A stretch of DNA of 39,381 nt from Candidatus Bathyarchaeota archaeon. GTDB taxonomy: Archaea; Thermoproteota; Bathyarchaeia; 40CM-2-53-6. Shown piece after piece: positions 4,384 to 17,548 of this stretch. The stretch's first letter is position 1; each line of letters starts with the position of its first letter. The notes beneath the pieces are model-generated. The model was not told the origin of the DNA. It saw only the letters and a program-made list of their open reading frames with translations, and searched no databases. The DNA is taken from NCBI GenBank assembly GCA_005881695.1, contig VBBT01000109.1:1-39381 (forward strand), read 5' to 3'. The translations under genes and the position numbers were made by a program.

Positions 4384-5418
4384 TTAGTCGATCTGCGCGT
4401 CCTCAATCCAGACCCCGCGCTTCTTCTGAACACGTCCTAGTTCGAAGACCGGGTGCCCATGTCTCTTGAATAGGCGATCTACACGGGTCACCTCTTCATC
4501 AGGGCAGACTAAGACAAAACCTACACCCATGTTGAATGTCCGTCGCATCTCTAGATCTGTCACATGCCCTTTCTCTTGTATCAGCTGGAATATGGGCGGC
4601 GTCGGTGGCAGCTGATCAATCCTTGCCCCTAGCTTGGCCTGGCCGAGGATCCGCTCAAGCTTCCCAAAAGAACCGCCAGTAATGTGGGCAAGGCCGTGGA
4701 TTTGCGTATTCGCGATTGCTTCCAGAACAGGTTTTACGTAGATTAGGGTAGGTTCGAGTAGTTCCTCGCCGACGCTGCGACCGAGTTCTGGAACTCTCTC
4801 CTGAAGCTTGTATTCCTTGAGAAGAATTTTCCTTGCGAGAGTCAGACCATTCGAGTGAATTCCTGAACTGGCTACTCCGATCAGCGAGTCCCCGTTTTGG
4901 ATCTTGTTTCCGAGAATCAGGTCTTTATTTCTGCATATTCCAGCTGCCATTCCCACTAGGTCAATCCCGGGGTCGCTGGAGAGAAGGTCTGGGACAATGG
5001 CGGTCTCGCCCCCAACTATTGCCATTCCTGCCTGTTTTGCCCCCTCTACCAGTCCAACTGCGATTTCGTTGACGATGCGACGATCGTGCTTGGCCATTGC
5101 GAGATAGTCGAGAAAGCTGATAGGTTCTGCACCTGTGCAAATCAGATCATTCGCGCACATCGCGACGCAATCTATCCCGATGGTGTCGTACTTCCGCATC
5201 AACTGAGCTATGATGACCTTGGTCCCGACGTTATCGGTATGCAGGCTCAGGACACGGCCATCGTTGAGGTCAACGAGACCTGCGTAATGGCCAATCGGGA
5301 AAATTGGATGCCCGACTCTCCCTTTACGAGTTTTGAATGTAGATTCCAGCAGTCGCGCAAGGGCCTCGTGGGATTTCCTGACTTGGGAAACGTCGACTCC
5401 TGCTCTGGCGTAGGTCAT
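4384..5418 (-). CDS. purM: Phosphoribosylformylglycinamidine cyclo-ligase (AIR synthetase)
   Basis: PurM closes FGAM to 5-aminoimidazole ribonucleotide using ATP, the fifth step of purine synthesis. The ATG at 5418 gives MTYARAGVDV, the family's standard beginning; a TTG at 5433 would add five extra residues. Diagnostic stretches include HTDNVGTKV (ATP/Mg site), CANDLICTGAEPISFLDYLA, the VGGETA loop and SSGIHSNGLTLAR. The length of 344 residues is normal. It is the last gene of the purine operon, 17 nt after purC, and converges on a membrane-protein gene. No strong terminator is visible after it. Confidence 0.95.
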   Translation of the reverse strand: MTYARAGVDVSQVRKSHEALARLLESTFKTRKGRVGHPIFPIGHYAGLVDLNDGRVLSLHTDNVGTKVIIAQLMRKYDTIGIDCVAMCANDLICTGAEPISFLDYLAMAKHDRRIVNEIAVGLVEGAKQAGMAIVGGETAIVPDLLSSDPGIDLVGMAAGICRNKDLILGNKIQNGDSLIGVASSGIHSNGLTLARKILLKEYKLQERVPELGRSVGEELLEPTLIYVKPVLEAIANTQIHGLAHITGGSFGKLERILGQAKLGARIDQLPPTPPIFQLIQEKGHVTDLEMRRTFNMGVGFVLVCPDEEVTRVDRLFKRHGHPVFELGRVQKKRGVWIEDAQID

Positions 5419-5435
5419 GCGGGACCTAGGCAAAC

Positions 5436-6302
5436 CTAGAGCTTCAGTCCCGTCAAGCGCTCGTAAGCGATCATGTACCGCTTACTCGTTTCATCAATCA
5501 GATCCTTGGGAAGGCCAGGCGGTCTCGGGGTTGGCTGGCCAGCTTTTCGCGCCTCATCAAGCATCTTCTTGTAACCAACCTTGGAAAGCCAATCTCGGAT
5601 CAACTGCTTATCATAACTCTCTTGGTTCTTGCCCGGAGAATAGTTCTCTTTCGGCCAGAGCCGAAACTCGTCAGGCCCAATCGAGTCCGCTAGAACGATG
5701 TTGCTTTCGTCGTCGAGACCAAACTCTAGTTTGAGATCGGCAAGGACAAAGCCGGCCTTGTCCGCGCGCTCGGACATTTTCTTGTAGATATTGAGGCTGC
5801 GATCTTTGAGCGCGATGATCTCTTCAGTGTCCAACCAGCCCTCGTCCACAATCTGGTCGACCGTGACAGGCTCATCTTTCACGTCAGACTTGGTGGTTGG
5901 ATCGAAGTATGGTTCAGGAAGTTTGATAGCGTTGATTGGCTTCACGGGTAGGTTGACCTCTCCCTTGACAAGTCTCTCGTAGAGACTGCCGTAGAGATAA
6001 CCTCGGACAACGCACTCCACTGGGATCATCTTCAGTTTCCGGACAATCATACGGTTCGCGTTCTCAACGCGGACCATATGATGGGGGACCTTCAGATAGT
6101 TGAACCAGTACTCCGCAAGCTTGCAGAGCACTTCCCCTTTTCGAGGAATGGTAGAAGGAAGGACAATATCATAGGCGGATACCCGGTCGGTAAAAACGAA
6201 CAAGAGCTCCTCGCCGTCGAGCTCGTAGATGTCCTTTACCTTGCCATGCTTGAATGGCATCGACGACAATTCGTTCTCAGGGTCATTAACGTGTTCTTGC
6301 AT
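5436..6302 (-). CDS. purC: SAICAR synthetase
   Basis: PurC joins aspartate to CAIR with ATP, giving SAICAR. Visible motifs are KHGKVKDIYE (nucleotide loop), the substrate motif ECVVRGYLYGS, LADLKLEFGLD and ADSIGPDEFRLWP, followed by SYDKQLIRDWL. At 288 residues it is longer than the roughly 240-residue bacterial form and resembles the longer PurC group also found in yeast-like enzymes. The ATG sits directly after the purE TAG stop with no gap, so the two are probably translated in series. PurE upstream and PurC together make SAICAR from AIR. Confidence 0.95.
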   Translation of the reverse strand: MQEHVNDPENELSSMPFKHGKVKDIYELDGEELLFVFTDRVSAYDIVLPSTIPRKGEVLCKLAEYWFNYLKVPHHMVRVENANRMIVRKLKMIPVECVVRGYLYGSLYERLVKGEVNLPVKPINAIKLPEPYFDPTTKSDVKDEPVTVDQIVDEGWLDTEEIIALKDRSLNIYKKMSERADKAGFVLADLKLEFGLDDESNIVLADSIGPDEFRLWPKENYSPGKNQESYDKQLIRDWLSKVGYKKMLDEARKAGQPTPRPPGLPKDLIDETSKRYMIAYERLTGLKL

Positions 6303-6737
6303 CTAGACACGACCACCACGGTATTGCTGGAGGGTCTTTGCGAGTTCTGAGTCGGAGAGTGCAAGAATCTCAGCGGCGAGGAGTGCCGCGTTCGTTCCAT
6401 TGTCCAGGCCGACGGTACCAACCGGGACGCCTGATGGGAGCTGAACGATCGACAGGATCGAGTCGAGGTTGAGCTTGCCCGAGACCGGGACCCCAATCAC
6501 TGGCTTGTTGGTTAGGGACGCCACGAAACCAGGTAGGCCAGCGCTGAGCCCGGCAATTGCAATGAAAATATCAGACTTGGAACCCTCGACGTACTTGTCA
6601 AGCTCTTTGTGGTTGCGGTGACTCGAGAGAACCTTCGTTTCGAAGGGAATGCCAAGCTTCTCAAAAATGGTCTCAGCCTTCTTGGCGATCTCCCGATCGC
6701 TCTCCGAGCCCATGACGATGCTAACGCTTTTGGTCAA
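6303..6737 (-). CDS. purE: AIR carboxylase / mutase PurE, class II-like
   Basis: PurE carboxylates 5-aminoimidazole ribonucleotide. MGSESD near the start and LSSHRNH mark the active site. I choose the TTG at 6737 because it overlaps the preceding stop as TTGA, as elsewhere in this operon; a GTG at 6746 would add three residues. The class I motif AGxAAHLPG is replaced by AGLSAGLPGF, lacking its histidine and resembling the AGRSNxLxGF loop of class II enzymes, which use CO2 directly. No purK is present, which agrees with class II. The first motif keeps R rather than the K of metazoan class II, so the class call is tentative. Confidence 0.9.
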   Translation of the reverse strand: MTKSVSIVMGSESDREIAKKAETIFEKLGIPFETKVLSSHRNHKELDKYVEGSKSDIFIAIAGLSAGLPGFVASLTNKPVIGVPVSGKLNLDSILSIVQLPSGVPVGTVGLDNGTNAALLAAEILALSDSELAKTLQQYRGGRV

Positions 6738-7309
6738 CTGTGACACCGCACAACTCGAGATTCTGTGACTACCGTGTTCGCTGGTAAATCAAACTGATCC
6801 CGAGGAACGCGACTGACAAGCTGAAGATTGAACGATAGACCGATCGACCGAACATGTTCTGGAAGCGTTTTGAGAATGCGGTCAAAATATCCTCTGCCCC
6901 AGCCGAGACGGTAGCCTTCCTTGTCCCAGACGATCCCGGGAATGAACATAACGTCGACTGCATCGAGGCTCTCGGGCCGTAGAAACTCTGGTCTGGGCTC
7001 GGGAATGTTGAAGCTTCCAGGCGCGAGCTCTTTCCCGAGGTCTTTGATTTCGGAGAAGAAGAGGTCAATGTCTCCTTTCTTCACAACGGGAACAAGAACT
7101 CGCTTGTTGCTATCCAAGGCCTTTCGGATGAGTGGACGAGTGTCAACCTCGCTACCCTTGCTGACGTAACAGGCAATACCTCTCGCGCGGACATACTCGT
7201 GAAGATGCAGAACCTGATCCAGGATCTCCACACTCTTCTGATCTATGTCTCGAGTAGACTGTCGATCTCTGAGGCGCAAAATGTATCGTCGAAATTGTTC
7301 TTTCTCCAC
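6734..7309 (-). CDS. 5-formyltetrahydrofolate cyclo-ligase
   Basis: This ATP-dependent enzyme returns 5-formyl-THF to 5,10-methenyl-THF and so feeds formyl groups back to FolD and PurN. The signature IPGIVWDKEGYRLGWGRGYF is the family's C-terminal substrate/Mg motif, and KEQFRRYILRLRDR is its N-terminal helix. The frame opens at an ATG (7384), but that would overlap folD by 58 nt. GTG at 7309 gives MVEKEQFRRYIL, the normal family start, 17 nt after the folD stop. Its stop overlaps the purE TTG. Position between folD and purE ties it to folate supply for purine synthesis. Confidence 0.9.
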   Translation of the reverse strand: MEKEQFRRYILRLRDRQSTRDIDQKSVEILDQVLHLHEYVRARGIACYVSKGSEVDTRPLIRKALDSNKRVLVPVVKKGDIDLFFSEIKDLGKELAPGSFNIPEPRPEFLRPESLDAVDVMFIPGIVWDKEGYRLGWGRGYFDRILKTLPEHVRSIGLSFNLQLVSRVPRDQFDLPANTVVTESRVVRCHS

Positions 7310-7326
7310 AGCAGTCTTTGCTTCGG

Positions 7327-8187
7327 TCAAACTTTCAATCCAATCTGGATACTTGAGGCCAGTATAGTGTTCTCTAGTAGACATGCGACCGTCATAGGTC
7401 CAACCCCTCCCGGAACCGGCGTAATATAGCCGGCTACTCTGCTGACCTTCTCAAAATCCACATCCCCCCGGAGCTTTCCGTCGACCCTTGTCAAGCCAAC
7501 ATCGACTACAGCCGAGTTAGGTTTCACGTGGTCGGCGCGAATCTGGAAGATTTCCTTTCCAACTGCACTGACTAGAATGTCAGCGGTCCGTGTCATCCCT
7601 GAAAGGTTGGCCGTCTTGGAGTGGCAGACGGTAACGGTCGCGTCTCTGTTGAGGAGGAGGTTAGCCAGGGGTCTGCCCACCAGATTGCTTCTGTTGATGA
7701 TAACTGCACGTGATCCAGCGACCGGAACTTTGTAGTAGTTTAGCAGCTTGATAACGCCTTTCGGCGTGCCCGGAACCAGTTCCTCATGACCTGAGGCCAG
7801 TTTGCCAGCGTTGATGGGATGCAGTCCGTCTACATCCTTGTAGGGGATGATTCTCTCGATTACCTTTTCCTCGTTGAAGCCTGGGGGTAGTGGCAACTGG
7901 ACGAGTATTCCGTTGACCTTGGGGTTAGTGTTGAGCTGGCCGAGCAAAGCTTCCAGTTTGTCCTGGGATGTGTCAGCGGGTAGATGGTGGCTCTCAGACC
8001 TTATTCCAACCTCATCAGCGGCCTTGTGCTTGGCTTTGAGATAGGAGGCGCTGGCAGGGTCGTCGCCGACTTGAACCGTGGCGAGGAAAGGCTTAGTGCC
8101 ATGTTTTTCTAGTTGTTGGACGTTTTGAGCAATCTGTTTCTTGACTTCACTAGCAACCAGTTTACCGTCCATGAGGATGGCTGTCAA
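7327..8187 (-). CDS. folD: Methylene-THF dehydrogenase / methenyl-THF cyclohydrolase
   Basis: FolD interconverts 5,10-methylene-THF, methenyl-THF and 10-formyl-THF. The active-site pair is Tyr49 and Lys53 in ASASYLKAKHKA, aligned with Tyr52/Lys56 of the E. coli enzyme. Other motifs are GILVQLPLPPG, KDVDGLHPINAG, the nucleotide-binding INRSNLVGRPLA and the ending ITPVPGGVGPMTV. The TTG start overlaps the purN TGA as TTGA, and the length of 286 residues is standard. Lying directly after purN, it makes the 10-formyl-THF that PurN consumes. Confidence 0.95.
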   Translation of the reverse strand: MTAILMDGKLVASEVKKQIAQNVQQLEKHGTKPFLATVQVGDDPASASYLKAKHKAADEVGIRSESHHLPADTSQDKLEALLGQLNTNPKVNGILVQLPLPPGFNEEKVIERIIPYKDVDGLHPINAGKLASGHEELVPGTPKGVIKLLNYYKVPVAGSRAVIINRSNLVGRPLANLLLNRDATVTVCHSKTANLSGMTRTADILVSAVGKEIFQIRADHVKPNSAVVDVGLTRVDGKLRGDVDFEKVSRVAGYITPVPGGVGPMTVACLLENTILASSIQIGLKV

Positions 8188-8807
8188 TTCTTGAAAAGCA
8201 CCCTCCTTCCTTCAAACCTCAATTGATCCTCTGTGAGGAGTCTGATTGCTTCGGGAAGAATTCGGTGCTCTTCCCTGAGGATTCGGCTGGAAAGAGTTTC
8301 TGCAGTGTCGTCGTCACGGATCGCGACTGCTGTTTGAAGAATTATGGGACCGTGGTCAACCTCTCTGTCGACAAGGTGGACGGTGCAACCCGTGACCTTG
8401 ACGCCGTGGTCGAGGGCTTGCCTCTGCGCCTCCAAACCAGGAAAGGATGGAAGTAGAGCAGGGTGTACGTTGATGATTCTACGAGGGTACAGATCGACGA
8501 ACTGCTCGCTAAGAATCCGGAGATAACCTGCCAGTACAATCAGCCCGTTTTTCGGCGCCACCCCGCGTGACTGGAGAGCGGCGATAGTTTTCTGGTCGTA
8601 GTCCCAGCTTTTCTTGGGGACACCCTTGTCGTCCAGGGTGATCGTTTGGACATGATGTTTCTTGGCTATGTCGAGAGCTGGCGCGTTGGGTCTGTTGCTG
8701 ATTACAATCTTGGCCTCGCACTTAGTGAGGTAGTGATTATCGACCGCGTCTAGTACGGCATCAAGGTTTGAACCTCGTCCTGACGCCAAGACGCCAATCG
8801 GGACCAT
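8184..8807 (-). CDS. purN: GAR formyltransferase, folate-dependent
   Basis: PurN moves a formyl group from 10-formyl-THF to glycinamide ribonucleotide, the third purine step. Catalytic Asn113 and His115 are seen in INVHPALLPSFPG and Asp151 in EVDHGPI; the N-terminal LASGRGSN loop binds the phosphate. The length of 207 residues is typical. The ATG at 8807 is 4 nt after the purD stop, and the gene ends in a TTGA overlap with folD. Use of PurN rather than the formate-dependent PurT found in many archaea means that this organism needs folate cofactors. Confidence 0.96.
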   Translation of the reverse strand: MVPIGVLASGRGSNLDAVLDAVDNHYLTKCEAKIVISNRPNAPALDIAKKHHVQTITLDDKGVPKKSWDYDQKTIAALQSRGVAPKNGLIVLAGYLRILSEQFVDLYPRRIINVHPALLPSFPGLEAQRQALDHGVKVTGCTVHLVDREVDHGPIILQTAVAIRDDDTAETLSSRILREEHRILPEAIRLLTEDQLRFEGRRVLFKN

Positions 8808-8811
8808 TCAA

Positions 8812-10344
8812 CTAGGCCTTTTCTGGTCCATGCATCTCTTTCAGCAACAGTTGTGAAGTGTCGATCCTGCCAAGATTTGGAACCCATCCCATTCTGCTTC
8901 CAAGAATCCCGTGTTCTTCCCTGTACTTGTAGAGTCGACGGACTCTTTCAGCCGCGTCACGTCGCTTCGCGAGAAGTCGGTCTGTGCCTATGTCGCTTCG
9001 ATGATAAAGGCCCCATCCATCAGTGAGTTGAACACTGGACACCGTTTTCTCGATCCTCGCACTGGCCGGCGGTAGAGTATGGTCCATCGCCATTAGCGCG
9101 AGAAGGCGAGAACCTCCCGTGACAACTTGCTGGTCTTCTTGGAGATCAGCACTTCCCCAGAACAAGTAGCACCCATTTCGTTTGATGTTTGTCTCGAAAA
9201 CCTGAACCGGGTGACCCTTGGCTTTCTCCCGTTTCTCGGGATATCCATTAGGAGCGACGACCTTTACAACCGCCGCGTCCTCATTGGTGAATTCGAGCTT
9301 CAGCCTAGACAGCCGTCTCTCAGCTATGGCTTGGAAGATGTCGACGATGTCTGTTTTGAGCATCGAAAGCATGTTGATGGCTTCGGGATCACCCAGCCGA
9401 GAGTACATCTCGATAATTGTCGGTCCCTCGTTTTCCGTGAGCATCATCTGCCCGCCGACCATGCCGTGGTAGGCTTTGCCGGTTTTTTTCTGGACGGCCT
9501 CAACGATTCCCTCAACGATCTTGAGCGACTTGTCATACTCTTCCCTAGTAATGAATGGGAGGGTCATGTCGGGACCTGAGATGCTGCCCATTCCGCCTGT
9601 CTCGGGTCCGCTGTCGAAGTCGTGGGCGCTCTTGTTGTCCTGGACGAGAGGGGTGCCAAGAACGGTTTTGCCATCTGTGAAGCATTGCAGAGAATACTCG
9701 GGACCCCATGCCTTCTCCTCAACCAGAATCTTGTCTTCGATGTCAGAGTAGGCAGCCATGCTGGCCTGGAGAGAATCGAAGTAGGCTTCTTTGAAACGCT
9801 CCTTCTCATCGTGTAGATAGATCTGCTGGTCTTCAATCAGCTTGACACCCTTACCGCCGGACTGACGGGCAGGCTTGATGACGATGTTTTGTAGCCAGGG
9901 TTGAGTGTCGATGTTTTTCCGGATATAGCCCGAGGCCTCCCGCGCGTTCTTGAAGGTTCGGAAGAGAAGCTTACCCGGGAGATTGTTCTCCCACTGCAGG
10001 CGTCGGAGGTCTGCTTTGGAACGTTCTATGATTGAGAGTTCTTGGCTAGCACCGATGCACTGGATGCCTTCCTTTTCAAGTGCGTCTGGTATAGCGTGAA
10101 AACCAGGCTCCTCGGGTCCCACTACCACTATGTCGATTCCCCAGCCGCGGGCAGACCTGACAATCGTCTTCGGGTCTGTTGTTCTGCCGATACGAAGTTC
10201 TCCCTTGTAGTCCCTGCAGATCTTGTGAATACCCGGATTCCGATTTTCAGCGATCCAGAATATCTCTGGTTTGTGATCGCTGAGACTCAACTTCCAAGCA
10301 AGCGCGTGTTCGCGTGCACCTCCGCCTACACCCATTACTCTCAT
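8812..10344 (-). CDS. purD: Phosphoribosylamine-glycine ligase (GAR synthetase)
   Basis: PurD ligates glycine to phosphoribosylamine with ATP, the second purine step. It is an ATP-grasp enzyme: N-domain GVGGGAREHALAWKL, grasp region IVIKPARQSGGKGVKLIED, VEEKAWGPEYSLQ, and the metal-site motif YSRLGDPEA. At 510 residues it is longer than the usual 420-440, with an extended C-terminus from about residue 440 (RSDIGTDRLLAKRRDAAER). That resembles some archaeal forms. ATG overlaps the previous stop as ATGA. The placement next to the PurF-like gene fits, because PurD uses the unstable product of PurF. Confidence 0.94.
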   Translation of the reverse strand: MRVMGVGGGAREHALAWKLSLSDHKPEIFWIAENRNPGIHKICRDYKGELRIGRTTDPKTIVRSARGWGIDIVVVGPEEPGFHAIPDALEKEGIQCIGASQELSIIERSKADLRRLQWENNLPGKLLFRTFKNAREASGYIRKNIDTQPWLQNIVIKPARQSGGKGVKLIEDQQIYLHDEKERFKEAYFDSLQASMAAYSDIEDKILVEEKAWGPEYSLQCFTDGKTVLGTPLVQDNKSAHDFDSGPETGGMGSISGPDMTLPFITREEYDKSLKIVEGIVEAVQKKTGKAYHGMVGGQMMLTENEGPTIIEMYSRLGDPEAINMLSMLKTDIVDIFQAIAERRLSRLKLEFTNEDAAVVKVVAPNGYPEKREKAKGHPVQVFETNIKRNGCYLFWGSADLQEDQQVVTGGSRLLALMAMDHTLPPASARIEKTVSSVQLTDGWGLYHRSDIGTDRLLAKRRDAAERVRRLYKYREEHGILGSRMGWVPNLGRIDTSQLLLKEMHGPEKA

Positions 10345-11642
10345 CGTTTCGCGCCTCCGTTCTCGAAGCAGCGCATGCAGAGATTCTGTCTTGGAAGCCC
10401 GATGGCGTGCTGGAGTTCTTCAGCGGTCATGAACGATATACTGTCAGCCCCGACATTATTCGCGAGTTCTTTCTCGCTCAGGCTGCCAGAAATCAGTTCG
10501 TCTCTGGGCGGGATCTCAACTCCGTAGGGACATGGTGAGACGAGTGTCGGGCTTCCAATTCGAACGTGTATCTGTTTGGCGCCGCTGCGTTTGAGATTCA
10601 GAACAGTGTTTCGCAGAGTATTTCCCCTGACGACGCTATCGTCCACCAATACCACGTCTTTGCCTTCGACCGCGCTCTTGATGGGGTTGAGTTTGAGCTG
10701 GACTCCTACGAGACGTTCTTTCTGTGTTGGTTCGAGAGCCGCACGGATGTTCTCTCCGGTTCGCATGAAGCCGGGTTCCTGGGGCATGCCGGACTCTTGA
10801 CTGTATCCATTGGCAATCGGGAGCGCTGTCTCTGGAACGCCAATTACAACGTCGGCTTTGACCGGGTGAGTCTTGGCTAGCTCTCTCCCGATGCTGTTTC
10901 TGACCTTGGCTACCGGAAGAGAATTGACTTGACTGTCGAGTCTTGCTAGGTAGACGTATTCGTAGCTGCAGAAGTTACCAGCGTCAGTTGCGGGCGTATT
11001 TCCGCGAATATCCTCGGGACTGAACATGATGACCTCTCCCGTTTCAACGGATCCAGTCTGGTCAATGCCCATCACGTCGAGAGCGCAGGTCTCGGATGCA
11101 ACGGCTGAAATGTCGAAGCCTACGCTCCCGGTCTCGAGCGGTTTTACCCCGAGCGGGTTTCTTCCTGTGATGAGTTCTTGCTTGTGGGTCAGAGCTGCGA
11201 AGGAGTATCCCCCTCCTATCTTATTGATGAGCATCGAAGTTGCTTTGAGCGGTTCTTTCTCGCTGTGGAGGAGCTGTGAGAGTTGGCGTGCGAAGAGCTT
11301 GGTGGCTTCGCCGCGGTTTTCGTGAAGATCTGTCGTGCCGTCAAGTGCGAGAACCATCTCGTAAGGCGTTTTAACGTGGACGAGGTAGTCCTCTAGGTAG
11401 GAGGATGTCTGTCCGATTCCGATGAAGCCTTTCGGAATACTTGCCCTGTTTTTCTGGAAGAATTCTTCAACACCTCCTTTTCCTGAGAGAGTGTGTAAGG
11501 TGTTTCCCTGTCCGATTGTTGCCAGGCTGACAGATTCTTGCCCCCGTCCTTGGAGCGCGTTCAGCCCGTAGTGGATGAAGTGGGACGCGTCCCAGTTTTC
11601 TCGTCCTTCGCCAAACGTGTAGAATCCTATCAGACCCGGCAT
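10341..11642 (-). CDS. PurF paralogue with degenerate glutaminase domain
   Basis: This is an amidophosphoribosyltransferase homologue of 433 residues directly after the canonical purF. It starts MPGLIGFY where active PurF has C-G-I-x-G, so the N-terminal nucleophile cysteine is replaced by Pro2. The glutamine-site arginine (GHVRYST in its neighbour) is Gln78 in GIGQTSS, and the NG motif is Asp101-Gly. The phosphoribosyl half is intact: PRPP loop VVLVDDSVVRGNT (330-342) and four cysteines (225, 371, 422, 425) matching the [4Fe-4S] ligands of B. subtilis-type PurF. It should not hydrolyse glutamine. It may use ammonia, regulate, or pair with PurF. ATGA overlap with purD. Confidence 0.88.
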   Translation of the reverse strand: MPGLIGFYTFGEGRENWDASHFIHYGLNALQGRGQESVSLATIGQGNTLHTLSGKGGVEEFFQKNRASIPKGFIGIGQTSSYLEDYLVHVKTPYEMVLALDGTTDLHENRGEATKLFARQLSQLLHSEKEPLKATSMLINKIGGGYSFAALTHKQELITGRNPLGVKPLETGSVGFDISAVASETCALDVMGIDQTGSVETGEVIMFSPEDIRGNTPATDAGNFCSYEYVYLARLDSQVNSLPVAKVRNSIGRELAKTHPVKADVVIGVPETALPIANGYSQESGMPQEPGFMRTGENIRAALEPTQKERLVGVQLKLNPIKSAVEGKDVVLVDDSVVRGNTLRNTVLNLKRSGAKQIHVRIGSPTLVSPCPYGVEIPPRDELISGSLSEKELANNVGADSISFMTAEELQHAIGLPRQNLCMRCFENGGAKR

Positions 11643-11649
11643 TGCTGGG

Positions 11650-13080
11650 TTAGGCCTTCATTTCTTCCCGGGTTCGAAGCACAGGATCTTTCTTTAGACC
11701 CAGATACTCACCAGTAACGCAGGCGAAGCACATTTCGTCCTTGCCAAGGCCGATTCCCTCGCTAAGACCGTTGATATCGTTGTAGCCGAGACCGTCGACG
11801 CCGATTTCAAGGGCGACTTTCTTGTTGAGGTCAGAGATGTTAAGGGTCTCGCCGTCTGCTTTGTTCGCGAGCAATTCTTCCCTTGTTGGGAAATCGATGC
11901 CCATGTAACATGGGTGGCGGATGGGCGGGAAGGTGACGACCATGTAGACTTTCTTCGCTCCTGCGTCTCGGAGGGATTGGACGATGTTTCTGCTGCTGGT
12001 TCCACGGACAATGCTGTCATCGACCACGATAACGTCTTTGCCGTCAACGACGGGTTTGATGATGATGATCTCTCGAACTATCTCTTCCCGGCTCTTGGCC
12101 GTTGGCTCGATGAAGCTGCGCATGTTTCCCTTTCTCCGGTATCGGTCTTTCATCAAACCCTCTTCCATTGGAATACCACTCTCCTCAGAGTAACCCAGAG
12201 CTGCAGGTCTTGCCGAGTCGGGGACGGGAATGACAACATCGGCCTTGAACGGGTATTTTCTGGCGAGGACTCTACCAAGCTTTCGTCGTGCGTCGTATAC
12301 GTAGTGGTCATCGATCTTGCTACTGGGATGACCGAAGTAAGTGTACTCGAATGGACAGTGATAGTGGCGTGGTGCGTCCGCGAATCTTGTTATTTTGAGA
12401 CCATCTTTGGTCAGACTGACGAGCTCGCCGGGTTGAACATCTCTGACAAGGTCTGCGTGGAGGGCTGTGAGGGCGCAGCTCTCGCTAGCAACGATGTGAG
12501 TGTCCGTTTCAGGATCATATCCGAGACAGAGGGGTCTGTACCCTGCTTCGTCCCTAGCCGCTAGTACCTCGCCGCCGTGTGTTATCATGACGAAGCTGTA
12601 GGAGCCGCTCAGCTCTTTGCTCAATTTGTGAAACGCACGGGTCCAATCCTGCTCAGCGCGATAGTGTTGCAGGAGACGATATCCAGCGAGCTTCGTGTCT
12701 GTCGTCGAGCCTAGTATTGGAAATTCTTTTTCGACGATTGGTTCAAGGTCTTCCGTGTTTGCGATGGTCCCATTCTGGGCGATGGCGAATTCGCCGCGAA
12801 TGTCGAGCGGATGCGCGTTCTCTAGTGTCGTCCGTCCGCGGGTCGAATAGCGTACGTGTCCTATTCCGCGATTGCTGGTGAAGCTGAGAATCTTCTTCGC
12901 ATTCGCATCCGCACCCTGTCCAATTAGGCCTAAGCCCTTGAGGATAGGCTCGCCGGGTACTGCTATTCCCCACGACTCCTGGCCTCGGTGTTGGAGGGCT
13001 GCGAGCCCTTTGACGATGCGCTCGGCAATGGGTTGGTTTTCCATCGAATATACGGCCAGGACGCCACAGTGTTCTTTCAT
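11650..13080 (-). CDS. purF: Amidophosphoribosyltransferase
   Basis: PurF makes phosphoribosylamine from PRPP and glutamine, the committed purine step. The ATG at 13080 overlaps the purL stop as ATGA and gives MKEHCGVLAVY, so a four-residue propeptide would be removed to expose Cys5 as the glutaminase nucleophile. GHVRYSTRG and AQNGTIAN bind glutamine; DVIVVDDSIVRGT binds PRPP. Cysteines in YHCPFEY, HPCYMG and the terminal CFAC pair match the [4Fe-4S] ligands of the Bacillus-type enzyme, which make such PurF oxygen-sensitive. The length of 476 residues is normal. The paralogue follows after 7 nt. Confidence 0.97.
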   Translation of the reverse strand: MKEHCGVLAVYSMENQPIAERIVKGLAALQHRGQESWGIAVPGEPILKGLGLIGQGADANAKKILSFTSNRGIGHVRYSTRGRTTLENAHPLDIRGEFAIAQNGTIANTEDLEPIVEKEFPILGSTTDTKLAGYRLLQHYRAEQDWTRAFHKLSKELSGSYSFVMITHGGEVLAARDEAGYRPLCLGYDPETDTHIVASESCALTALHADLVRDVQPGELVSLTKDGLKITRFADAPRHYHCPFEYTYFGHPSSKIDDHYVYDARRKLGRVLARKYPFKADVVIPVPDSARPAALGYSEESGIPMEEGLMKDRYRRKGNMRSFIEPTAKSREEIVREIIIIKPVVDGKDVIVVDDSIVRGTSSRNIVQSLRDAGAKKVYMVVTFPPIRHPCYMGIDFPTREELLANKADGETLNISDLNKKVALEIGVDGLGYNDINGLSEGIGLGKDEMCFACVTGEYLGLKKDPVLRTREEMKA

Positions 13081-15326
13081 AGCGTCGCCTCCATCGCCCG
13101 GGGAATCGTTCCGGACCACGCCCTTGAAGCTTCAGCCAAGGGGATTGTGATGATGGCTTGTCCCTTTGAGAAGAACTGGATTCCGTTGTCCGTTACTGTC
13201 CCGACCTTTGCTGCAGGTATTCCGAGTCGTTTGAACGAGTTGACTATTCTAGTTGTGTTATTGGGTTTTGTTTCGAGGACGAATCGCGATCTTGATTCTG
13301 AGAATAGCAAGTTGTCCGTTCTGCTGGTCATGTTTGGAACCTTGTCGATGTCTATGGTTGTGCCTTTGCGGCCTTGAACTGACATCTCGGCTACCGCGAC
13401 GGCTAATCCACCTTTCGAGATATAGTGTAAGCTTTCTACTCCTCCTCTTCTCAGAGTCCTCAACAGCGCTCGCAAGAGCGTCTTCTCTTTCTTCAAGTTG
13501 ACCCTTGGGACCCGGCCGCCTGTGAGCTTGTGTATGTGTTCGTAGTATTCGCTTCCACCCATCTCATCGGAGGTGTTTCCGACGATGATGAGATCGTCTC
13601 CTTCTCTACTGAGAGCCTGTAGTACCTTCGGAGTTTTGGATTCTGCGAGTCCTATTGCGGCAATGACAGGCGAGGGCTTAATCGCCCTGCGACTCACAGA
13701 GTCTTCGTTGTAGAAGCTAACCTTCCCTCCGACACAGGGCACTCCGAGAGCCTTAAGATAGTTGGAGATGGCTCGAATGGCTTCTTTGAAGGTCCAGTAG
13801 ACCTCAGGATTACCAGGGTCTCCAAACTGCAAGTGATCGACGACCGCAACAGGTTCCGCGCCGGCAGCGGCTAGATTGCAGAATGCTTCCGAGACAACCC
13901 CCGCGGTTCCCCAGTAGGGGTCAACATAGCATTGTTTACTGTTGCCGCAGGTGGTGAAAGCAAGAGAACGCTTGTTTGGAAGACGCAGTAGTGCGGAGTC
14001 GGCTTGTCCCGGTTTAACGATGGTCCGGATTCCGACCTCGTGATCATACTGGCGATAGATCCATTCCTTGCTGGCGATATTCGGGTTAGTGAGTAGATCG
14101 ATGAGTGATTGACCGAAGTCTTCAGGCAGAGCTGGCTCAGATACCTCTGCGAGAGCATCGAGATATGGAGGACGCTTTGCTAACCTGGGTGCGAGTGGTG
14201 CCTCAGCGACGAACATAGCCGGCGCTTTCGCCACAATCTCGTTTCCCAGCCGGATGGTTAGGAGGCCGTCCTTGGTGACTTGTCCTATCTTCGCGTAGCC
14301 TACCTCCCATTTCTCTAGGATACTGACGAGTTTTCTCTCGTCTTTCTCTCGGATTAGGAGAACCATTCTCTCTTGTGATTCGGAGATCATGATCTCTTCG
14401 GGTTGCATGTCGGGCTCCCGTGTCTGGATCTTGTCCAGATCGATCTCTATCCCTGTTCCAGCCTTCGCGGCGATCTCTGATAGTCCGCAGGTTAGGCCTC
14501 CCCCGCCGAGGTCTTTCATTCCCTGGATGAGGTTCGCCTCTACAGCTTCTAGTATCGCTTCGATGATGAGCTTCTTTGTGAATGGATCGGGGACTTGGAC
14601 GGCAGATCGTTCTGTGTCGGACCTGTCTGTCAGTGTCTTGCTGGCGAAGCTTGCTCCGCGGATCCCGTCTCGTCCGGTTCTTCCTCCGATGAGGTAGATG
14701 AGGTCACCTGGGTGGCGAGCTTCGCCTAGGACAAGCTTGCCTTTTCGTCCGAGGCCAACGCATGCGACATCAACGAGGCAGTTTCGTTCGAAGGATGGGT
14801 CGAACTCCACCTCCCCACCGACTATTGGGACGCCTATGCAGTTGCCGTAGTCTGCTATTCCCCTGACCACATTGTCGAAGAGCCAGCGGGTGTGAGGGCT
14901 CTCTATTGATCCGAACCTGAGAGGGTCGAGGAGAGCGATGGGACGTGTTCCTAGACTGAGGATGTCGCGGACGACCCCGCCGACGCCAGTGGCCGCTCCA
15001 CCATACGGGTCGATGGCACTAGGGTGGTTGTGTGATTCGATGTGGAGGGTCACGACCCAACCGTCGCCGACGTCGATGACCCCGGCGTCGAAACCGGGTC
15101 CGACGAGAACTCTGGGTCCCTTGCTGGGAAGCTGTTTGAGGAGTGGTTTGCTGGATTTGTAGCTGCAGTGCTCGGACCACTGCGCTTCGAGCATCGCCCA
15201 TTCAACCTCGTTAGGCTCGCGCTGAAGCTTCTTCACAGCGTACCGGATCTCCTCATGGGTGAGATTGGGCTTCGGAACTTCCACTAGGATCAAGCTTTGA
15301 GACTCCGCGACGACGGATCGTGTCAA
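13077..15326 (-). CDS. purL: FGAM synthase subunit PurL (small type)
   Basis: PurL is the ATP-dependent synthetase subunit that converts FGAR to FGAM using ammonia channelled from PurQ, held together by PurS. Its 749 residues fit the small PurL of archaea and Gram-positive bacteria. WSEHCSYKSS (50-59) contains the conserved catalytic histidine. ESHNHPSAIDPYGGAATGVGG is the signature of the first ATP/Mg site (only its flanks need checking), and DLGGGGLTCG and VGGKVSFYNE follow in the second half. TTG start overlaps the small membrane protein stop as TTGA; the end overlaps purF. purS and purQ lie upstream in the same operon. Confidence 0.96.
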   Translation of the reverse strand: MTRSVVAESQSLILVEVPKPNLTHEEIRYAVKKLQREPNEVEWAMLEAQWSEHCSYKSSKPLLKQLPSKGPRVLVGPGFDAGVIDVGDGWVVTLHIESHNHPSAIDPYGGAATGVGGVVRDILSLGTRPIALLDPLRFGSIESPHTRWLFDNVVRGIADYGNCIGVPIVGGEVEFDPSFERNCLVDVACVGLGRKGKLVLGEARHPGDLIYLIGGRTGRDGIRGASFASKTLTDRSDTERSAVQVPDPFTKKLIIEAILEAVEANLIQGMKDLGGGGLTCGLSEIAAKAGTGIEIDLDKIQTREPDMQPEEIMISESQERMVLLIREKDERKLVSILEKWEVGYAKIGQVTKDGLLTIRLGNEIVAKAPAMFVAEAPLAPRLAKRPPYLDALAEVSEPALPEDFGQSLIDLLTNPNIASKEWIYRQYDHEVGIRTIVKPGQADSALLRLPNKRSLAFTTCGNSKQCYVDPYWGTAGVVSEAFCNLAAAGAEPVAVVDHLQFGDPGNPEVYWTFKEAIRAISNYLKALGVPCVGGKVSFYNEDSVSRRAIKPSPVIAAIGLAESKTPKVLQALSREGDDLIIVGNTSDEMGGSEYYEHIHKLTGGRVPRVNLKKEKTLLRALLRTLRRGGVESLHYISKGGLAVAVAEMSVQGRKGTTIDIDKVPNMTSRTDNLLFSESRSRFVLETKPNNTTRIVNSFKRLGIPAAKVGTVTDNGIQFFSKGQAIITIPLAEASRAWSGTIPRAMEATL

Positions 15327-15526
15327 GACGGTCGCTCTCTTGCTCGATTAGCTAGAAGTATTGCACGCGAACCTGTGACTACTCCTATGATGAAGGCGAT
15401 GATGAACCCGACGAGGCCGGCGATGAGATAAGCAATTAGACCTGCGACAACTCCGGCGATAAGTCCTCCCACGATGGCGGCGGCGCGCGGATACGTTCTC
15501 TTTTTCGCGGAGGGTTCTTCTGTCAA
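15323..15526 (-). CDS. Small membrane protein in purine operon, 67 aa
   Basis: TTG start gives MTEEPSAKKRTYPRAA. One long or two short Gly/Ala-rich hydrophobic helices occupy about residues 15-55 (IVGGLIAGVVAGLIAYLIAG, then FIIAFIIGVVTGS), with basic residues at both ends. The stop overlaps the purL TTG, so it is translationally coupled to purL. It is not a known PurLQS component. Its N-terminus, TEEPSAKK, resembles that of the adjacent small membrane protein (TEETRSTRR), so the pair may have arisen by duplication. Function unknown; a membrane anchor for the purine enzymes is speculation. Confidence 0.68.
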   Translation of the reverse strand: MTEEPSAKKRTYPRAAAIVGGLIAGVVAGLIAYLIAGLVGFIIAFIIGVVTGSRAILLANRARERPS

Positions 15527-15529
15527 GTC

Positions 15530-15736
15530 TTATGGAATCTCCTCTTTCTTATGCTCCTTTTTCGGAAGGATCAGGCCCACGCCCAGTGCTATCAATATGA
15601 GACCGTAGAAACCGCCGAGAAAACCGATTCCTGCGATATAGGCGATGGAAAAGAATCCAACGAGAGAGATGATGCCTAGGGCGATGGAGAATATGCCGAG
15701 AACCAGACGGCGAGTAGAGCGAGTTTCTTCGGTCAG
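15530..15736 (-). CDS. Small membrane protein in purine operon, non-canonical start
   Basis: A clear two-helix hydrophobic protein reads LGIFSIALGIISLVGFFSIA and a second helix around GFYGLILIALGVGLILP, ending in PKKEHKKEEIP. Between the upstream in-frame stop and the first helix there is no ATG, GTG or TTG. The best candidate is CTG at 15736, giving (M)TEETRSTRRLVLG, with a GGGAG about 20 nt upstream. Alternatively a 9-codon reading frame from TTG at 15769 enters this one by a frameshift or sequence error. It lies between purQ (34 nt) and the other small membrane gene (3 nt). Function unknown. Confidence 0.5.
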   Translation of the reverse strand: MTEETRSTRRLVLGIFSIALGIISLVGFFSIAYIAGIGFLGGFYGLILIALGVGLILPKKEHKKEEIP

Positions 15737-15770
15737 TGGTCTATTTCTTCTCCCTTTCTCGCAGCTTCAA

Positions 15771-16481
15771 CTATCTTCCTCCTTCGAGAGTTTCGATCAT
15801 CGAGTCGAAAATCATCCTTCCTTCTGAGTGATTGTCCGGGGTTAGAATGGGTATGGAGGCGCGTTCGGGGTGGGGCATGAGCCCCATCACGTTTCCTTCC
15901 TTGTTGCAGATTCCGGCAATGTTGTCCATGGAGCCGTTAGGGTTCGAATCCTCCGATGGAATATTGTTCTCGTCAACGTATCGTAGAACGATCTGCTCTC
16001 TCTTCTCAAGTTCAGCAAGCTGGCCGTTATCGAGATAGTATCGGCCTTCGTTGTGAGCGATTGGAATTCGCAGTGCCTGATCTTTGTTTGCGAGTTTTGT
16101 GAACGGTGTTCTGGTGGATTCTATTCTGAGCCGTGTCCACTTGCAGACGAATCGTAACCCGGTGTTTCGAAGTACAGCGCCGGGTAGGATTCCGGCCTCG
16201 ACTAGTATCTGGAAGCCATTGCATATTCCGAGAACTGGCTTGCCTCTCTCAGTTGCCTCTCTGATAGTTTCTAGGCTTGGGCTGGTCGCGGCTATTGCGC
16301 CAGCGCGGAGGTAGTCGCCGTAGGAGAAGCCTCCCGGTAGGATGTAGGCGTCATATTGATCATTTTTCAGGGCTTGGTGCCAGACTAGGTCTGTTGGGAC
16401 CTTGATGGTTTTTTGGAGAATTTCTAGCGCGTCTAGGTCGCAGTTGCTTCCAGGGAATTGTACTACTGCGACCCTTGCCAT
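15771..16481 (-). CDS. purQ: FGAM synthase glutaminase subunit
   Basis: PurQ is the class I glutamine amidotransferase that supplies ammonia to PurL. The ATG at 16481 gives [15 protein letters not shown], the family start; upstream codons to 16541 are not expected to be translated. The catalytic triad is Cys87 (GICNGFQ), His204 and Glu206 (MPHPERA). [19 protein letters not shown] is the PurQ oxyanion and hinge region. At 236 residues it is a stand-alone subunit, not fused as in large PurL. It follows purS with a 129-nt gap that may hold its own promoter. Confidence 0.96.
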
Positions 16482-16511
16482 TATCCTAGTTTCCCAAAGT
16501 AGTTGATTTCG

Positions 16512-16525
16512 ATGCCTATTAAGCC
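16512..16525 (-). promoter_or_regulatory. Candidate TATA box for purQ
   Basis: On the minus strand an A-rich stretch precedes GGGCTTAATAGG about 38 nt before the purQ ATG, within the unusually long purS-purQ gap. An archaeal TATA box here would give a leader of about 10 nt. It would let purQ and the rest of the operon be transcribed without purS. The call rests on position and composition only. Confidence 0.3.
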
Positions 16526-16610
16526 CTTTTTTGACAGGCATATGTCAACGGAGGAGAGTGCTGAAAAATGAGACTTCAGGCGGAAAATTACGACCTGATA
16601 GCTCGCTTCG

Positions 16611-16874
16611 TTAGCTTACAACCCTGACCTGGCAGGTGTGTGCTGCAGGATTGTAGATCCGGAGATCGTCACAGAGTTTCCGAACAAGTTGTTTAGCGTC
16701 CTCCGGGGAGCTGGCCTCAACACTCATCCGCAACAGCTTACCAGCACGAACGTTTGTCACCTGTGAATAGCCACCTTTCAGGATCAGATTGTGGTGGATC
16801 GTCTCTCCTTCAGGGTCCCGAGCTAGAGGTTTGTTCTCTACGACGACCTCGACAGTGAAGGTTGCCGGTGACAT
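16611..16874 (-). CDS. purS: FGAM synthase subunit PurS
   Basis: PurS is the small dimeric protein that bridges PurL and PurQ. FTVEVVVENKPLARDPEGET followed by VTNVRAGKLLRMSVEA and a final VRKLCDDL helix matches the family throughout. The ATG at 16874 gives MSPATFTVEVVVENK and an 87-residue product, the normal length; in-frame ATG 16952 and the frame opening at 17006 would add residues unlike the family. A CTTAAG element about 30 nt upstream (16901-16906) could be its TATA box. It is the first gene of the operon and diverges from the gene at 16982. Confidence 0.92.
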   Translation of the reverse strand: MSPATFTVEVVVENKPLARDPEGETIHHNLILKGGYSQVTNVRAGKLLRMSVEASSPEDAKQLVRKLCDDLRIYNPAAHTCQVRVVS

Positions 16875-16981
16875 TGCAAGCAGCTTGCTCTGTGAGCCTC
16901 CCTTAAGCTCTTTTTCGTTGAGGGTCCCAACGCGAGTCCGAAGAGTTGACATTCTAGGTAAGTAGGCTAATCGGAGTCTAG

Positions 16982-17548
16982 TTGACGCCCACAGAATTCT
17001 TGCCACGCGCCCACTCTAGGAGGTTGGGGGAACTCGACGTTTCTAACTGGAAAGATCTGGCTAAAGGAAGAAACGCATCTCGCATCGACCCGGCCATACG
17101 AGAGATCGTATCGTCACTGAACGACAAGGGATACAAGACGTTCTCATCTTGTAGCGGAGGCCACAGAGCAAATCTTCGCCGGAGATTCGACCGTCACGAG
17201 AGCGGCTACATCGCCTTCTCTCCACCTTCAAGGATTCCTTTCGCCCTTTATCTCGCCCTTCGTAGACGGAATCAAAACTTCATGTTCGAAGCGGAAGCTG
17301 TCATCCACGATGGAAATGGGGATAGAAGAGAGACAATGTACACGCAGCTAGACTGGCAGCTCGTGGATCAAAGGAAACACAGTCTGGCGTACTACGAGAA
17401 GCTCTTCCTCGAGATGAAGAGAGTTATCAATCGCCTTCCCGGACAACCAGATGATCACAAGAAAGTCTTGACCGGGCTGCTGGGAAAACCAAACCTGACA
17501 CTAGCCTCGAGAATTGTGAACGGTCAGATGAAACGGTTTGGCACGTAG
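16982..17548 (+). CDS. Hypothetical protein with TFSSCSGGH motif
   Basis: TTG start, 188 residues, soluble and basic. The central stretch IREIVSSLNDKGYKTFSSCS followed by GGH, then GYIAFSPPS, resembles small prokaryotic domains with a glycine-tyrosine-threonine, serine-cysteine, glycine-histidine pattern. It also weakly recalls the SCSGR loop of Tyw3-type wybutosine enzymes. The match is too short to assign a function. It diverges from purS. Downstream, 192 nt contain no recognisable gene. Confidence 0.55.
   Translation: MTPTEFLPRAHSRRLGELDVSNWKDLAKGRNASRIDPAIREIVSSLNDKGYKTFSSCSGGHRANLRRRFDRHESGYIAFSPPSRIPFALYLALRRRNQNFMFEAEAVIHDGNGDRRETMYTQLDWQLVDQRKHSLAYYEKLFLEMKRVINRLPGQPDDHKKVLTGLLGKPNLTLASRIVNGQMKRFGT

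Follow-up and report, generated by a model that had tools for sequence, protein, structure and literature searches.

A PurF paralogue lacking glutaminase residues occurs together with one type of PurD in Bathyarchaeia

PurF makes phosphoribosylamine and PurD consumes it, and how this unstable intermediate passes from one enzyme to the other is unsettled. A purine cluster from a Candidatus Bathyarchaeota archaeon bears on this question, as it holds two purF-like genes in tandem ahead of purD, the second of which lacks the residues for glutamine hydrolysis. What might such a protein contribute beside a complete PurF? The stretch of DNA analysed here (the window) comprises 39,381 nucleotides of contig VBBT01000109.1 (assembly GCA_005881695.1). 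The source genome, from a soil archaeon, is a 2.0 Mb draft, 82.5% complete, with Bathyarchaeota MAGs as near relatives. Compared genomes are denoted by group codes (e.g. f42).

Identity of the second PurF-like gene

The second purF-like gene (Table 1) is, as judged from its translation, purF', an old duplicate of PurF that appears to have given up glutamine hydrolysis. Its frame, its coordinates and the tandem order of the two genes had been given correctly in the initial annotation, as had the four-base overlap between its stop and the start of purD (cgATGAga). The product shares 32% identity with the canonical PurF of the same cluster over 465 columns. Homology to the B. subtilis Fe-S type of PurF (EC 2.4.2.14; 1ao0, 1gph) spans the full length (profile 3-443, chain 2-449) and includes the PRPP loop and the four Fe-S cysteines, whereas the nucleophile Cys, Arg73 and Asp127 are missing, Asn101 is replaced and the flexible loop that covers the active site has a different sequence. 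In the alignment, Pro2 takes the place of the nucleophile Cys, Ser80 of Arg73, Asp101 of Asn101 and Ala113 of Asp127, and the canonical KNRY..RTFI of the flexible loop becomes a conserved (Q/R)TG...RSAI. The PRPP loop and all four cysteines (225, 371, 422 and 425) are retained. Arg73, Asn101 and Asp127 are numbered as in E. coli PurF, and the Fe-S ligands are assigned as is usual for PurF.

This alignment reproduced most of the residues first picked out (Pro2, Asp101-Gly102, the PRPP loop at 330-342 and the four cysteines). It did not bear out Gln78 as the counterpart of the glutamine-site Arg: Gln78 aligns with the His of HVRYST, and the Arg (E. coli R73) aligns with Ser80. Both R73 and the K326-L350 loop of PurF are described in PMC7953260.

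Table 1. Features of the purine cluster in the window
Feature	Position	Strand	Basis
Purine cluster purS-Q-L-F-F'-D2-N-folD-5FCL-E-C-M (reading order)	4384..17006	-	ORFs, scans, neighbourhoods
Canonical purF, 489 aa including pro-segment	11650..13119	-	Cys, HVRYST, QNG and Asp127 intact; TIGR01134, 363 bits
purF', PurF paralogue without glutaminase residues, 433 aa	10341..11642	-	Library scans, alignment, PurF' group of tree
purF' Cys225, Fe-S ligand position 1	10968..10970	-	Alignment
purF' PRPP loop, residues 330-342, VVLVDDSVVRGNT	10617..10655	-	Alignment
purF' Cys371, Fe-S ligand position 2	10530..10532	-	Alignment
purF' Cys422-x-x-Cys425, Fe-S ligand positions 3 and 4	10368..10379	-	Alignment
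ATGA overlap, purF' stop and purD2 start	10341..10344	-	Sequence
purD2, GAR synthetase type accompanying PurF', 510 aa	8812..10344	-	Library scans, alignment
PurD2 ATP-grasp domain insert, about residues 173-205	9730..9828	-	Missing from other PurD types
PurD2 C-terminal tail, residues 455-510	8815..8982	-	Invariant R469, Y472, R475, W487, P489, G492

Profile searches agreed with the alignment. PurF' scores 257 bits against NCBIfam purF (TIGR01134), below the curated cut-off of 350, and matches Pfam Pribosyltran at 32.7 bits (cut-off 26.3). The Pfam scan found no GATase domain in PurF', while canonical PurF matches GATase_6 and GATase_7. A Cys hidden by a mis-annotated start was ruled out: the stop-to-stop reading frame of PurF' reads RPNPAMPGL, and no upstream in-frame start restores the residue. 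The fold, the pocket for PRPP or ribose 5-phosphate and the Fe-S ligands are predicted to be kept. AlphaFold models of PurF' and PurD2, made from shallow alignments, had mean pLDDT values of 35 and 33, too low for use.

Within the cluster, purN, folD, 5FCL, purE, purC and purM were named from their own sequences rather than by library scan. The genes are tightly packed except at 15327-15770, where about 440 bases between purQ and purL hold no listed purine gene.

Conservation, distribution and descent of PurF'

For 56 sequences the identity as PurF' was checked at the level of single residues; the remaining genomes were assigned from score and copy number. The glutaminase Cys and Arg are absent from all 56 sequences and the Asn remains in 3, while the PRPP-loop residues D, D, S and G together with R332 are kept in every one; three of the Fe-S cysteines are likewise invariant and the first is present in 54. 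With Cys and Arg found in none and D-D-S and G kept throughout, this pattern lies beyond chance. It also speaks against the random decay of the PRPP site that had been named at the outset as grounds for abandoning a functional reading. The exact Pro2/Gln78/Asp101 signature was not conserved: most homologues have A, P, S, T or G at the first position, the Arg site is not Gln78, and D occupies position 101 in 43 of the 56.

Among canonical PurFs the same residues are kept in nearly all of 60 rows. A division of the reaction in which canonical PurF had given up its own PRPP site was ruled out, as the canonical loop is kept and D-D has become E-D in only 3 of the 60.

In the genus of the window, dN/dS of PurF' is 0.105 overall, with 0.106 for the N-terminal half and 0.103 for the C-terminal half; canonical PurF gives 0.029. 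Values near 0.10 in both halves, together with the residue conservation, indicate that PurF' is maintained. Selection constrains the dead glutaminase half as much as the C-terminal one, which suggests that the dead half has a structural role. The earlier proposal of a selective loss with a maintained function is therefore upheld, the same pattern recurring across the phylum.

PurF' was found in 20 of 257 genomes of the class (11 of the 18 examined in the genus of the window, 3 in family f4 and 6 in family f9) and in a further 108 genomes of the remaining phylum sample. This occurrence across class and phylum ruled out an oddity of one genome, which had been considered at first. In the PurF tree, which covers the group-coded genomes, a branch with support 100 sets all 55 Cys-less PurF' rows, those from the rest of the phylum included, apart from canonical PurF, and PurF' of the window's genus groups with the outside families f50, f60 and f45.

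PurF' is of a known kind, encountered here in a lineage outside the report in which that kind was described. Brown et al. (2011; PMC3261824) named PurF' in Crenarchaeota and suggested that it uses ammonia. The two share a second PurF-like protein beside a true PurF, a missing N-terminal Cys, a separate tree cluster and a position near other purine genes. In the genome of the window, too, canonical PurF is encoded, with purF and further purine genes nearby. The present PurF' differs in belonging to Bathyarchaeia and in being linked to a particular type of PurD, which the PurF and PurD sections of their paper do not report. The literature searched, in which coverage of subscription journals was thin, contained no later work on PurF'.

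Several variants were observed. In families f42 and f36 (L118, L119, L135, L136, L149-L151) PurF' is shorter, at about 370-415 aa, with a shrunken glutaminase half and Thr or Ser in place of the PRPP-loop Arg. In one relative (G007, L043:9001-10304) purF' carries a frameshift, which may be an assembly error or real damage. Five genomes of family f14 (G250, G256, G254, G252 and G251; L173, L174, L175, L176 and L177) encode a second, independent Cys-less PurF-like protein that begins QGVI or KGVI, reads LDG and DDSIVRGTVS, and keeps the Fe-S cysteines; Asn101 is again Asp, and the gene adjoins neither purF nor purD. These copies were ruled out as PurF', since they form a separate Cys-less lineage among canonical PurFs in the tree. 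On this evidence glutaminase function has evidently been lost at least twice in the class.

Linkage of PurF' to one type of PurD

The purD gene that overlaps purF' encodes a distinct type of GAR synthetase, PurD2. It matches TIGR00877 at 308 bits (cut-off 288) and shares the domains GARS_N, GARS_A and GARS_C with other PurDs, from which it differs by the ATP-grasp insert and by a conserved C-terminal tail that measures 39-59 residues, compared with 11-19 in other PurDs. The tail was absent from every other PurD examined, and no solved PurD structure covers it, all of them ending before it. Against the PurD of the window, PurDs of genomes with PurF' score 326-1050 bits and those of genomes without it 87-122 bits. 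The exception, G441 (family f63), has an intermediate PurD that reaches 390 bits in the profile search and lacks the tail, in a genome without PurF'. PurD2 forms one group in the PurD tree (the row for G435, labelled 'other' there, is PurD2 by profile search), and PurD2 of the window's genus groups with f50, f60 and f45, as PurF' does.

In a profile search of the 257 class genomes, PurD2 was present in all 20 genomes with PurF' and in 1 of the 237 without, G045, where a contig edge cuts purD2. Outside the class, each of the 108 genomes of the phylum sample with PurF' also encodes PurD2, and pieces of PurD2 without a recognised PurF' occur in two drafts (G337 and G572). Mapped onto the canonical-PurF tree, the two traits change nine times, always jointly, and six independent pairs, taken from well-supported branches, are all concordant (p 0.031 by sign test). 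Five genomes of the window's genus (G002, G003, G009, G010 and G016) illustrate an exchange in place: purF is followed directly by an ordinary purD instead of purF'-purD2, in an otherwise equal cluster whose PurF is orthologous (887-895 bits). G040 of family f9 has neither protein, and its relatives have both.

Where the cluster is broken up, PurF' mostly remains with PurD2. In f36, f28 and G301 (f45), purF is found at a distance of several kilobases or on the opposite strand, and purF' is still beside purD2; in f44 g203, purF is transcribed divergently from purF' and purD2, which lie on one strand. In f44 g137/g153, purF' adjoins purF, with about 2 kb between purF' and purD2, and in f53 the three genes are scattered, yet all present. 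The expectation that the paralogue always lies next to canonical purF thus holds in the class wherever both were assembled and fails in a few lineages outside it.

Tree distances of PurF' over 29 genomes correlate with those of PurD (Spearman 0.88) and PurF (0.85) far more than with those of the two controls, the purine proteins PurL (0.44) and PurC (0.32), which may have histories of their own. Rank partial correlations are 0.65 for PurF' and PurD given PurF, 0.53 for PurF' and PurF given PurD, and only 0.17 for PurF and PurD given PurF', as would be expected if PurF' links PurF and PurD. Similar correlations can arise from co-inheritance of an operon or from foreign copies of PurL or PurC. 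PurD2 as a partner of PurF' appears to be new, as the linkage was not found in the literature searched.

Some further features of these PurD loci were noted. A third type of PurD, far from both ordinary PurD and PurD2, is encoded at L110, L114 and L116 (G040, G024 and G163); it falls below the NCBIfam purD cut-off (223 vs 288 bits in G040) and directly follows purF in several Bathyarchaeia. In one relative (G012, L108:8382-9953) purD2 contains a frameshift, again due either to assembly or to real damage. Members of the genus without PurF' have about 1 kb of DNA separating purD from purN and again folD from a 5FCL-like gene (L112:3611-4860 and L112:1147-2108), which none of the window's purine genes matched.

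Possible roles of PurF'

Since PurF' is conserved and travels with one form of PurD, it probably aids the handover of the unstable intermediate. The model that we favour, at a probability of roughly 0.42, is that PurF' is a non-glutaminase, ribose-phosphate-binding subunit that links PurF to PurD2 and passes on phosphoribosylamine. PurF' would assemble with canonical PurF, which has the same fold, and would dock PurD2, so that phosphoribosylamine made by PurF could reach PurD2 without loss; PurF' and PurD2 would act as one unit, to which PurD2 would bring its own C-terminal tail. The suggestion made at the outset, of a partner that hands phosphoribosylamine to PurD, has in this way gained strong genomic support through PurD2; that the proteins touch, that PRPP or phosphoribosylamine is bound and that channelling takes place is what we infer from sequences and gene context.

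A comparable glutamine amidotransferase is carbamoyl-phosphate synthetase I, in which the glutaminase half has lost its Cys and the rest is still useful. In that enzyme an active synthase that uses ammonia is fused to the dead half, whereas PurF' stands beside a complete PurF.

Transfer between PurF and PurD is believed to occur by transient contact, and the in vitro coupling of the Aquifex enzymes was too weak to be useful, so that transfer may require a further component, as summarised by Brown et al. (2011; PMC3261824). PurF', which lacks the glutaminase residues, retains the ribose-phosphate pocket and is tied to a tailed type of PurD, would fit this missing component. A more specific form of the model makes PurF' a dedicated carrier that uses the PurD2 tail to bring PurF and PurD2 together in a three-protein channelling complex, as the extra protein for which the coupling studies hinted at a need; it can be put forward only tentatively.

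In either form PurF', which always comes with one PurD type, is a concrete candidate component of the transfer, and the unexplained PurF' of 2011 gains a partner in PurD2. The PurF'-PurD2 system is probably present in culturable archaea too, and the PurD2 tail is a testable, putative docking element. Annotators should note that roughly one in two PurF-like proteins of these archaea is no glutamine amidotransferase.

The same linkage would fit equally well the suggestion of Brown et al. (2011) that PurF' is an ammonia-dependent PRPP aminotransferase, here feeding phosphoribosylamine to PurD2 beside a glutamine-dependent PurF. The invariant PRPP-loop residues and R332 agree with this, as does the continued use of ammonia that Brown et al. 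report for E. coli PurF without its Cys (PMC3261824). We consider it the less likely role, as the flexible loop is rewritten, the PRPP-loop Arg has given way to Thr, Ser or Lys in 17 of the 56 PurF' sequences, and canonical PurF is present in essentially every PurF' genome, so that there is no sign of its replacement by PurF'.

PurF' might instead be a regulatory subunit that senses purine nucleotides through the retained pocket and sets the activity of PurF without taking part in the handover. Canonical PurF is subject to inhibition by nucleotides that bind in or next to the PRPP site (PMC7056826), and the strong purifying selection on PurF' and a divergence that tracks PurF (0.85) would suit such a role. 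The exclusive co-occurrence with one PurD type, the PurD2 tail and the persistence of purF' beside purD2 when purF moves would all be left unexplained, which makes this role rather improbable.

Genomic neighbours can also be inherited or transferred jointly without contact between their products. On these grounds purF' and purD2 could be ancestral neighbours that were lost, kept and transferred as a block, with PurF' serving an unrelated role; they are adjacent in the majority of genomes, and the two trees place them with identical outside families, so that a single transfer could account for the pair. In view of nine joint changes, the agreement of all six independent pairs, a pair that stays intact where purF has left and a joint presence even where the genes are scattered (f53), linkage without partnership appears very unlikely.

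Decay of PurF' as a pseudogene, which the frameshifted copy in G007 might bring to mind, is contradicted by the dN/dS of about 0.10 in both halves and by an open frame and conserved residues across the phylum, and has next to no chance of being correct.
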